DNA of 64,000 bases. Source: Nitrospira sp. CG24D. GTDB lineage: Bacteria > Nitrospirota > Nitrospiria > Nitrospirales > Nitrospiraceae. Positions 11,556 to 62,747 of this stretch are shown here, in pieces (the stretch's first letter is position 1; each line of letters opens with the position of its first letter). The position numbers and the translations under genes were made by a program. Under the pieces are notes generated by a model. The model did not search any database. It was not told the DNA's origin and saw only the letters and a list, made by a program, of their open reading frames with translations. The DNA lies in NCBI GenBank assembly GCA_002869855.2, contig NEWQ02000015.1:173696-237695 (forward strand), given 5' to 3'.

Positions 11556-11936
11556 CTACTTCTGGCCTGAGGTGGTGCTGGATGCAGGTGCGCTGCTGGC
11601 AGATGGAGTCGACGAGCTGGTCGTTCCTCCGGAAGCCGGTGGCGCAGGTGACGCGGCGGGAGTCGGTGACGCAGACGCTGCCGGAGCCGCTGACGAATCA
11701 GCCGTTGTCGTTGCCGTGGGTGTCGGTTTGGAAGTTTCCCCGGTCGGCGGTTTCATCTTGTCTGAATAGTCCGTAATGTACCAGCCGGATCCCTTAAACA
11801 TGATTGCGGGTGCCGAAATGATCCGGCTGACGGATTTGCCGCATTTCGCGCATGTGGCGACAGCTTCGTCTTTCATGCTCTGTTTCAGCTCAAACGTATA
11901 TGAACAGTCGTGGCAGAGATACTCGTAAATAGGCAC
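11556..11936 (-). CDS. FmdB-family zinc-ribbon protein with Ser/Thr/Ala/Pro-rich tail
   Basis: The product opens with PIYEYLCHDC and carries four Cys as two CxxC pairs (C8/C11 and C29/C32), followed by the family sequence SRIISAPAIMFKGSGWY. This is the regulatory zinc-ribbon (FmdB/CxxC_CxxC_SSSS) family, whose molecular role is still unclear. The start is a GTG at 11936 with GGAGGG upstream; the residues before it in the longer frame are not conserved. The last 60 or so residues are low-complexity Thr/Ser/Ala/Pro. It lies 70 bases after the aminotransferase and may belong to that operon. Confidence 0.85.
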   Translation of the reverse strand: MPIYEYLCHDCSYTFELKQSMKDEAVATCAKCGKSVSRIISAPAIMFKGSGWYITDYSDKMKPPTGETSKPTPTATTTADSSAAPAASASPTPAASPAPPASGGTTSSSTPSASSAPASSTTSGQK

Positions 11937-59870: not shown

Positions 59871-61313
59871 TCATTCTGAGGTTGGCGGGCTGTTCGCCGA
59901 GGTCCGTCTGCGCGCCACGCCGCTCTCGCGCGCGGCTGCTGCCACGGCCCGGGCGACCTGCGGGACGACGGTTTTATCGAAGAGGCTGGGAATGATGTAG
60001 TCCTCGCTTAAGGCATTTGCCGGAATTGCTCGGGCGATGGCGTTCGCCGCGGCCAGCTTCATGGCCTCATTGATCTGGCTGGCTTGAACGTCGAGCGCGC
60101 CGCGGAAGATGCCGGGGAAGGCAAGTGCGTTATTGATCTGATTGGGGAAATCGGATCGCCCGGTGGCAAAGATGCGACAGTGCGAGGCGGCGAGTTCCGG
60201 CGATACTTCCGGATCCGGGTTCGCCATGGCAAAGACAATGCGCTCGGGAGACATCAGCTCAAGGTCTTCGGCAGTCAGAATATTTCCGACCGAGAGCCCG
60301 ATAAAGACGTCGGCGCCCTTCAGCGCATCGCGCAAGGTTCCGGCGGGGGTCTCACGGGTTAAGCAGGCCGTCAGATCGGTTCGACAGGCGTGTAGTTGCT
60401 CCGGGCTGCCGGACAGGATGATGCCTTCTTTATCGCATCCCAACAGATGCGAGACGCCCGCCGCCAGTAACATCCGGCAGCAGGCTGTACCGGCGGCGCC
60501 CAGGCCGTTGACGACCACGCGGATGTCCCCGATCCGTCTGTCTGTGACGAGCAGCGCGTTGGTCAGAGCGGCGAGAATCACCACCGCCGTGCCGTGCTGA
60601 TCGTCGTGCATCACCGGAATATCGAGTGACGCCTTCAGCCGTCGTTCGATGTCAAAACAGCGGGGCGCACTGATGTCTTCCAGATTGATCGCGCCGAATC
60701 CCGGCGCGATGCCTTGGATGATGCGGACGATATCATCCGGGTCCTGCGTGTTCAGGCACAGCGGCCAGGCATCGATCCCGGCCAGTTCCTTGAACAACAT
60801 CACCTTGCCTTCCATCACCGGCAGAGCCGCTTCGGGACCGAGGTTGCCGAGTCCCAACACGGCAGATCCGTCCGTCACCACCGCGACGCTATTACTCTTG
60901 CTGGTGAACGCATAGACTTTGGATTTATCCCGTGCGATAGCCTGGGAGACTCGTCCCACCCCCGGGGTGTAGACCATTGAGAGGATGTTTCTGGTATTGA
61001 TCGGGATCTTGCCTTCGACGCGAATCTTGCCGCCGAGGTGTAACAGAAATATCCGGTCGGAAGCTGATAGCACGGTCACATCAGGAAGGGCGCTCAGCCG
61101 GGCCAAGACCTTCTCGCCATGGGATTCATTGTGCACATCGAAGGTGACGTCCCGAACCATTTGGGTTTTGGTCGCCGAGACAATATCCACCGCGCCGAGA
61201 TTGGCTCCCTCATCGGCCAGCAAGGCCGCCACGCGGGCGAAGATGCCGGGCGTGTTGGCGAGTTCCAGTCTGACGGTGAGGCGATAGTTGGAATAGGGGC
61301 CGATTTCAGCCAT
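59871..61313 (-). CDS. malic enzyme with N-terminal ACT domain
   Basis: NAD(P)-malic enzyme decarboxylates malate to pyruvate. The 480-residue protein has an N-terminal ACT-like domain (residues 9-85, VRLELANTPGIFARVAALLADEGANL) fused to the malic domain (VYTPGVGRVSQAIA, GLGNLGPEAALPVMEGK, MHDDQHGTAVV) and the NAD(P)-binding domain (NGLGAAGTACCRML). ACT domains often bind amino acids, so the enzyme may be allosterically controlled by one. A GAGGT site precedes the ATG. Confidence 0.93.
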   Translation of the reverse strand: MAEIGPYSNYRLTVRLELANTPGIFARVAALLADEGANLGAVDIVSATKTQMVRDVTFDVHNESHGEKVLARLSALPDVTVLSASDRIFLLHLGGKIRVEGKIPINTRNILSMVYTPGVGRVSQAIARDKSKVYAFTSKSNSVAVVTDGSAVLGLGNLGPEAALPVMEGKVMLFKELAGIDAWPLCLNTQDPDDIVRIIQGIAPGFGAINLEDISAPRCFDIERRLKASLDIPVMHDDQHGTAVVILAALTNALLVTDRRIGDIRVVVNGLGAAGTACCRMLLAAGVSHLLGCDKEGIILSGSPEQLHACRTDLTACLTRETPAGTLRDALKGADVFIGLSVGNILTAEDLELMSPERIVFAMANPDPEVSPELAASHCRIFATGRSDFPNQINNALAFPGIFRGALDVQASQINEAMKLAAANAIARAIPANALSEDYIIPSLFDKTVVPQVARAVAAAARESGVARRRTSANSPPTSE

Positions 61314-61426: not shown

Positions 61427-61455
61427 TTGACTTTGTACATATCTTTGGCATACCG
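61427..61455 (+). promoter_or_regulatory. candidate promoter of the repeat-protein gene
   Basis: TTGACT (61427-61432) and a weak ATACCG (61450-61455) lie 17 bases apart. The leader would be about 66 bases. Confidence 0.3.
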
Positions 61456-61527
61456 TGCGAAGAAATTTGCCTGATCGTGACAGGCACTCATTCCAAACTT
61501 TCAAAACCTTTCAGGGGGAGAACAGTT

Positions 61528-61737
61528 ATGAAGAGCATGTTGATGGCAATCATGGCAGTCGCAATTGCAGTGACGTTCAGCGCGCCGTCCTTCGCCGGCG
61601 AAGAGAAGAAGAAGGAAGAGAAGAAGGGCGGCCACGTCGTCGTGTTCGGCGAAGAGAAGAAGAAGGAAGAAAAGAAGGGCGGCCACGTGGTGTTCGGCGA
61701 AGAGAAGAAGAAGGAAGAGAAGAAGGGCGGTCACTGA
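61528..61737 (+). CDS. small exported Lys/Glu/His tandem-repeat protein
   Basis: The 69-residue protein has a signal peptide (cleaved after SFA, residue 23). The mature part is made of three near-identical copies of EEKKKEEKKGGHVVVFG, the last cut after GGH. No family is recognised. One His per repeat and a high charge suggest metal or polyanion binding, but that is speculation. GGGGGAG precedes the ATG and a strong terminator follows, so it is a single-gene unit likely to be well expressed. Confidence 0.8.
   Translation: MKSMLMAIMAVAIAVTFSAPSFAGEEKKKEEKKGGHVVVFGEEKKKEEKKGGHVVFGEEKKKEEKKGGH
61597..61734 (+). repeat. three tandem in-frame repeats (51, 48 and 39 bp)
   Basis: Units at 61597-61647, 61648-61695 and 61696-61734 begin with GGCGAAGAGAAGAAGAAGGA and differ at only a few positions. 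The second lacks one codon (VVF instead of VVVF) and the third ends at the stop codon. Near-identity at DNA level implies recent duplication or gene conversion. Confidence 0.95.
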
Positions 61738-61789
61738 TCGACCGACACCGCTGAGGTGTCGTCCATCTGTGCCTCTGACTGAATATGTC

Positions 61790-61827
61790 AAAAGGCCTAC
61801 GGTCCTCATGATCGTAGGCCTTTTTTC
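61790..61827 (+). terminator. intrinsic terminator after the repeat-protein gene
   Basis: AAAAGGCCTACG pairs with CGTAGGCCTTTT around a 10-base loop and continues into TTTTTTCTTT. A strong Rho-independent terminator on the plus strand. Confidence 0.88.
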
Positions 61828-61868: not shown

Positions 61869-62459
61869 GCAATCATGTCATCGACATCTGATCGCAAGCC
61901 GAATCGCCTGCATACTGAGACCAGTCCCTATCTCCTTCAGCACGCCTACAACCCGGTTGATTGGTATCCCTGGGGCCCGGAGGCGTTGACTGCCGCCAGG
62001 TCATCGAACACACCGATCCTGTTGTCGATCGGCTACTCGGCCTGTCACTGGTGCCATGTGATGGAGCGGGAGTCGTTTGAGAACGAGGCGATTGCCGCCA
62101 TCATGAATCGCCATTTTATCTGCATCAAAGTGGATCGGGAGGAACGGCCGGATCTCGATGAGATTTACATGGCGGCGACGGTGGCGATGAACAACGGTCA
62201 GGGCGGCTGGCCCATGACAGTGTTTCTCACGCCGGATCAGGAGCCGTTTTTCGCAGGGACCTATTTCCCTCCGGAAGACCGTTGGGGCCGGCCCGGGTTC
62301 GGCACGTTGCTCAAAAAGATCGCTGACTACTGGGAGAAAGATGCGGCGGGTGTCCGGACTCAAGCGAAAGAAATGACGGAGCGGTTAAAAGGCGAAGGCC
62401 GGATTCCCTCCCCTATCTCTGTCAGTGAATCGGTCCTGGACGATGCCGTTACACAATTC

Positions 62460-62737
<278 letters not shown>

Positions 62738-62747
<10 letters not shown>

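Follow-up and report, generated by a model that had tools for sequence, protein, structure and literature searches.

A family of small exported charged-repeat proteins in Nitrospira with two predicted promoter classes and an apparently dedicated enhancer

The locus and its protein family

Near the end of the window, i.e., the whole 64-kb stretch of DNA from Nitrospira sp. CG24D that we analyzed, lies a gene encoding a small exported protein, in which a Sec-type signal peptide ending in SFA is followed by the mature units GEEKKKEEKKGGHVVVF, GEEKKKEEKKGGHVVF and GEEKKKEEKKGGH (Table 1). The first-pass annotation, made from the sequence alone, had proposed an exported Lys/Glu repeat protein here, and this reading holds; the gene itself was correctly placed within the interval 61528-61827, although the end of that interval takes in the terminator. 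It had also described three copies nearly identical at the DNA level. Tandem Repeats Finder reports an array at 61596-61734 with a period of 48, 2.8 copies, 93% matches and a score of 241, which bears out the near-identity and not the full third copy, since by our reading the third unit is truncated (13 aa vs. 17 and 16 aa), giving 2.75 near-identical K/E repeats. The sole other tandem array in the window has a score of 64; it is a short 24-bp repeat of 1.9 copies at 11650-11695.

Table 1. Positions in the window of the exported repeat protein gene, its predicted signals and its neighbors
Feature	Position	Strand	Basis or detail
Malic enzyme with ACT domain, divergent neighbor	59871..61313	-	Pfam PF00390, PF03949, PF13291
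Predicted sigma-70-type promoter, TTGACT-N18-TACCGT	61427..61456	+	Pattern TTGAC-N17..20-TANNNT at fitting spacing
Predicted leader hairpin, TGCCTG-N7-CAGGCA	61468..61486	+	Begins about 11 nt past the -10 element
Shine-Dalgarno stretch, AGGGGGAGA	61513..61521	+	Sequence reading
Exported charged-repeat protein gene, 69 aa	61528..61737	+	ORF reading, translation, relatives
Sec-type signal peptide, 23 aa, ends SFA	61528..61596	+	Sequence reading
Mature part	61597..61734	+	Units 61597-61647 (17 aa), 61648-61695 (16 aa), 61696-61734 (13 aa)
Predicted intrinsic terminator, then T tract	61790..61824	+	15 pairs
YyaL/DUF255 N-terminal part, downstream neighbor	61875..62525	+	PF03190, E 7.9e-78

The gene forms an isolated unit, with the malic enzyme gene running away from it on the upstream side and the YyaL N-terminal part starting past the terminator. 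The earlier claims of a separate transcription unit and of a very strong terminator are therefore borne out, the latter by its 15 pairs, a folding energy of -23.3 kcal/mol and a z of -7.5 against 200 shuffles. Such a structure is typical of the family: among the 83 members with at least 150 nt of downstream sequence, 77 have a downstream hairpin of at least 8 pairs, compared with 19.6 of 83 in mononucleotide shuffles. The downstream YyaL gene is cut short in the window, at about 216 aa, whereas the frame in the four relatives with an in-contig stop, measured from the same motif, extends for about 1207-1216 aa. A tRNA-Pro gene is located at 62671-62747, just past the shortened YyaL, and the shortening may reflect a deletion, an insertion or an assembly error.

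A contig-level genome search identified 38 relatives of the window protein, from records titled Nitrospira, Nitrospiraceae, Nitrospirae or Nitrospirota, with one titled Nitrosospira. A comparison of five syntenic orthologues gives a pN/pS of 0.12 for the signal (10 pairs) and of 0.16 for the mature part (only 3 pairs of equal length). Given these relatives and the low pN/pS, the ORF is more than a chance reading frame. In our survey of the genus, 76 of 79 genomes gave a family match (48 of 49 when restricted to the better ones). Each of them has 1 to 4 match rows, a few of which represent one gene split in two; the homologues in close relatives that the earlier reading called for are thus present. 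In an even draw across the phylum, 100 of 395 genomes and 9 of 169 genera contain a match, and 99 of these 100 genomes belong to the window's taxonomic family, the remaining one being from the same order, with a weak match (E 8.3e-7). Our scripted set of 84 distinct loci yields 78 distinct proteins, of which 5, 54, 16 and 3 contain 2, 3, 4 and 5 charged blocks, respectively, in line with an earlier guess that repeat number would vary. The Shine-Dalgarno position in the family leaders displayed reads AGGGGG or AGGAGG. Neither the window protein nor any of 32 members matches a Pfam or NCBIfam model above its cut-off, a search of solved structures returned a single match (E 0.49), to a signal peptide, and we found no description of this family in open-licence full texts. 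The family is apparently undescribed.

Promoter classes, enhancer and leader hairpin

The first-pass annotation saw the gene as its own unit and missed the promoter architecture of the family, which is our main point. Among the 82 members with 220 nt of upstream sequence, 63 carry GGCA-N6-TTGC, a predicted sigma-54 (-24/-12) promoter, at 55-110 nt before the ATG (0.12 in shuffles), and 14 carry the sigma-70-type pattern TTGAC-N17..20-TANNNT (0.5 expected in shuffles). One member with both patterns was counted as sigma-54, leaving 13 sigma-70 copies, and 6 of the 82 contain neither pattern. The window copy is of the sigma-70 type; a general promoter scan missed its site because the second hexamer is weak.

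Promoter class follows gene order. All 13 copies at the YyaL locus are sigma-70-type: every one of the 13 sigma-70 copies precedes YyaL and no sigma-54 copy does, with malic enzyme the nearest neighbor in 9 of these 13 and a DnaJ-like gene in the other 4. Of the 63 sigma-54 copies, 42 face a NUDIX gene, one has a UDG gene alone before the contig end, and 20 are without reference neighbors. Orthologues within one locus are 87-99% identical (10 pairs) or 94-100% identical (6 pairs), and two copies within one genome are 77-90% identical (3 genomes). For example, the genome of the window contains a paralogue (L002) with a predicted -24/-12 site, CGGCATGCGGCTTGCT, located 79 nt before the ATG, a predicted enhancer at G000:C5:222908-222945, and stems in the leader 6-15 nt from the promoter. 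The combination of -24/-12 site and enhancer is what a sigma-54 enhancer-dependent gene would be expected to carry, and the window copy, with its sigma-70-type promoter and no enhancer, falls outside that class. The same genome contains rpoN (PF04552, 194.6 bits), and 18 matches to TIGR02915 at E <=1e-80, all under the cut-off, which we read as other AAA+ activators.

Two further arrangements were seen. A divergent branch (L093, L103, L104, L105) lacks the enhancer, the -24/-12 site and the sigma-70 pattern, and its genes adjoin an ORF of roughly 415 aa and, in N. moscoviensis, also a gene that we take for otsB. In genome G006, the second copy of a tandem pair (L046, G006:C56:131636-132178) is without a detected promoter pattern.

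Upstream of the sigma-54 copies we identified a palindromic candidate enhancer, TGWGGCRGWWTRG-N12-YAWTYYGCYACAG. A score of at least 20 of 26 is reached by 55 of 63 sigma-54 copies, a count that is partly built in because the consensus was drawn from the same sequences that it scored, by 0 of 13 sigma-70 copies and 0 of 6 other copies, and by none of the upstreams when each was shuffled once. A scan of the genus is a fairer test than scoring these source upstreams, and it located the strict enhancer in 40 of 76 genomes (42 match rows), with 0 matches to a reversed control in all genomes. We inspected 31 matches in 30 loci, the further match rows being known by coordinates alone. A family ATG lies 30-185 nt downstream of 27 of these; two precede family gene starts cut by N or a contig end; one (L168) precedes a sigma-54 leader and a stretch of N, beyond which stands another complete enhancer-promoter-leader unit; and one arises because a perfect palindrome also matches in reverse. 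L171, among the 27, has its enhancer 30 nt from the ATG, with no sigma-54 site seen between them. The enhancer matches inspected in the genus all belong to the charged-repeat family.

Of 41 non-redundant sigma-54 upstreams, 18 have an IHF-like site separating the enhancer from the promoter (0.7 in shuffles), and 10 have it in its strict form, compared with 0 of 12 sigma-70 upstreams. PrsR, the PEP-CTERM regulator, was considered as the activator and rejected, being above cut-off in only 3 of 12 genomes and not in the window's own genome. A response-regulator activator starting MNAKILIVDDDPDIV is encoded some 8 kb upstream of the third-locus copies in 3 of 4 genomes (L210, L211, L213, L215), the nearby activator in the fourth being a different one. 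The own-genome orthologue (79-82% identity) is located on another contig. We rate this activator as a weak lead, because conserved gene order accounts for the proximity. Our literature search for the enhancer half-site returned nothing usable.

Copies of both promoter classes have the same type of predicted 5′ hairpin. A perfect stem of at least 5 pairs, 6-20 nt past the promoter, is present in 43 of 63 non-redundant leaders (shuffles: mean 5.5, maximum 11) and missing from the other 20; neither the group of L030, L034, L058, L060 and L061 nor the group L037-L040 shows a clear one. In 52 sigma-54 leaders, 84.9% of cells are paired, with double changes in 6 of 6 pairs, and in 11 non-redundant sigma-70 leaders 87.1% are paired, with double changes in 4 of 6. 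Covariation of the stem is 0.299 vs. 0.211 for sigma-54 and 0.382 vs. 0.218 in shuffles for sigma-70, values that 0 of 500 shuffles reach in either class, although kinship can exceed such shuffles. When the partners are slid by 1-3 columns, covariation falls to at most 0.14 (sigma-54) and 0.21 (sigma-70). The covarying stem speaks for an RNA hairpin rather than a DNA palindrome, which would covary too, because the loops are of 5 to 9 nt. The window leader as a whole has a stability like that of its shuffles (z 0.43).

This hairpin, together with the very strong terminator, would also suit a stable regulatory RNA formed by leader, repeat-rich body and terminator, in which the ORF is incidental. 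We consider such an RNA extremely improbable, as the reading frame, the signal peptide and a low pN/pS are all maintained, and one tRNA is the only match to Rfam families in the window.

Transcription in N. moscoviensis and nitrite oxidoreductase

In N. moscoviensis, NITMOv2_2496 is reported to rank with nxrABC among the genes transcribed most strongly (PMC6606698). This gene is probably the divergent 73-aa family member at 2324069-2324290 (NZ_CP011801.1, genome G003, to which all N. moscoviensis coordinates refer), an identification made by gene counting: with the bacterioferritin gene at 2379653 taken as NITMOv2_2541, a crude gene count places the member 44 genes before it, near tag 2497, and an alternative small exported ORF of 135 aa at 2319942-2320349 counts to about tag 2493. 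The member is neither the orthologue of the window gene nor a sigma-54 copy; N. moscoviensis has further members at 231.7 kb and 1963.0 kb. The earlier expectation of an abundant protein thus gains support from one published transcriptome if NITMOv2_2496 is this member, an identity that we infer by gene count.

A probable rank equal to that of nxrA, nxrB and nxrC raises the question of whether the peptide is made in step with nitrite oxidoreductase (NXR) and bound to it in the periplasm. Of the genomes searched with an NxrA of N. moscoviensis, 10 of 11 family-positive ones match, as do 10 of 13 that lack the repeat protein but belong to the same taxonomic family (one at only 42% identity) and 3 of 3 from other families of the order. 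The family is therefore no mark of NXR, since NxrA is common in family-negative genomes too, and NXR can evidently do without the family. Of the 11 family-positive genomes tested, 6 have a family copy 11-22 kb from an NxrA gene, the places in two others being incompletely listed; in the window's own genome the coordinates are G000:C5:206134-209565 and 222526-222741. This proximity favors an NXR-bound peptide, whereas the strict enhancer occurs only once in N. moscoviensis, at a family gene and not at nxr. On balance we regard an accessory of NXR as very unlikely.

Composition, comparison with known systems and possible role

The mature part of the window protein is about 46 residues long, with K/E blocks joined by Gly-Gly-His/Lys linkers. 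In the family alignment the signal is well conserved, with AFA, SFA or TFA as residues -3 to -1 in 72 of 78 distinct members (the cleavage site being set by pattern, without a signal-peptide predictor), and E and D swap in the mature part. The linker GGH-VV-F/Y-G varies to GGH-ADTFG or GGK, and divergence consists of E/D, H/K and repeat-number changes, with composition retained. AlphaFold2 (32 sequences) gives a mean pLDDT of 55 with the signal as the sole helix; the mature part, at a pLDDT of about 50, is without secondary structure, a low-confidence model that leaves room for short helices. The single stable helix proposed earlier finds no support in this model, and we infer a chain that is probably disordered in vivo.

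The first-pass annotation had further proposed a metal-binding module built on GGH. In a broader form, His and Glu would hold Cu, Ni or Zn, or would buffer periplasmic protons from nitrite oxidation. His is found in 76 of 78 mature chains and is the most frequent residue after Gly-Gly (215 junctions: His 156, Lys 48, Gln 5, Tyr 3, Asn 2, Pro 1), and the window protein weakly resembles CopK (NF033793; E 0.011), although at 15.8 bits it is far below the cut-off of 123. Lys replaces His in the 48 junctions above, two chains are His-less, Cys is in none, and the one to four His per chain have no fixed spacing to other ligands. These counts weaken the GGH module, and we judge a role in metal or proton binding distinctly unlikely.

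What the family does retain is a composition like that of hydrophilins, whose published limits, as quoted in PMC7448490, are Gly above 6% and a hydrophilicity index above 1. All 78 distinct mature chains have at least 11.4% Gly and a Kyte-Doolittle value of at most -1.46, and all 78 lie within the hydrophilin composition limits, in a class that is also defined by stress induction and to which we compare the family by composition. As a control, 0 of 66 non-overlapping ORFs in the window are within these limits over their whole length, a comparison that is not quite like for like as members were scored without the signal. The nearest likeness is to hydrophilins or LEA-like proteins and especially to the secreted Zmo0994 of Zymomonas mobilis, which also combines a signal, a Gly-rich hydrophilic mature part and no predicted fold (PMC7448490); the family protein differs in being much shorter and built of tandem units, and we liken the two by composition, claiming no sequence kinship.

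Three other known systems can be compared with the family. ExtJ (NCBIfam NF040942), from selenite/tellurite reduction operons, is likewise a small exported protein; 10 of 32 members match its model at E <=0.01 (best 6e-05), the window protein is below the cut-off (19.9 vs. 52.5 bits), and the neighbors of family genes seen here, unlike those of ExtJ, form no selenite/tellurite reduction operon. KGG-repeat stress proteins of the YciG/GsiB type (PF10685) are small, charged, cytoplasmic proteins with repeated Lys-Gly-Gly motifs. They resemble the family in size, charge and repeated Lys-Gly-Gly, whereas the family is exported, and the Pfam searches gave no PF10685 match for the window protein (E up to 1) or for 32 members (E up to 0.01). 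The PEP-CTERM protein PepA is exported and has a -24/-12 promoter and its own terminator, as do the sigma-54 family copies, and a predicted enhancer is mentioned there (PMC9850573). Compared with PepA, the family lacks a PEP-CTERM sorting domain and has another enhancer context, and PrsR is not above cut-off in the own genome.

Alternatively, the peptide may be exported beyond the periplasm or cover the cell exterior, where its mixed charges would link cells to exopolysaccharide and to one another in microcolonies or flocs. Two papers are consistent with such a matrix or surface component, in that comparative work links sigma-54 to genes for the cell exterior (PMC3162934) and an RpoN-dependent exported PEP-CTERM protein is required for flocs in another bacterium (PMC9850573). 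The family is moreover exported, repetitive, charge-mixed and genus-wide. It has, however, no C-terminal sorting signal, lipobox or Cys, and the PrsR result given above also argues against this role, which we consider rather unlikely.

The explanation that we tentatively prefer is a small, secreted, disordered polyampholyte that may act as a hydrophilin-like protective envelope protein, supplied at a basal level by one copy and conditionally by others; the protective role is suggested by composition. Sec export and cleavage would deliver a K/E chain of about 46 residues to the envelope, where a hydrated, charge-balanced, folding-resistant peptide could hold proteins of the periplasm or surface in solution as levels of water, ions or protons change. 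Basal supply would come from the window copy through its sigma-70-type promoter. The sigma-54 paralogues would provide the conditional supply, with an activator on the palindromic enhancer and, in some copies, DNA bending at the IHF-like site, such that the sigma-54 polymerase at -24/-12 is opened. The 5′ hairpin may cap the mRNA against decay and the strong terminator would close it, giving mRNA in quantity.

In the literature searched we did not find described this family, its dedicated enhancer or its split between two predicted sigma factors, the nearest kinds of protein being already known. A bolder and unlikely reading is that a lineage-specific disordered peptide is so important that the genus keeps an activator-enhancer pair for approximately one target, holds other copies on sigma-70, and, in N. 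moscoviensis, transcribes a member like NXR; the family would then represent a new kind of exported polyampholyte, protective or proton-buffering, linked to nitrite oxidation in the periplasm.

The family is a clear natural example of a single small protein kept under two predicted sigma factors with the same type of 5′ hairpin. The enhancer provides a handle, since its activator would define the signal answered by, according to the strict pattern, one gene. Nitrospira are central nitrifiers and hard genetic subjects, and this family, which is near-universal in the genus (76 of 79 genomes), absent from most other genomes sampled in the phylum, and probably among the top transcripts of N. moscoviensis, is for these reasons a good candidate for an overlooked trait.
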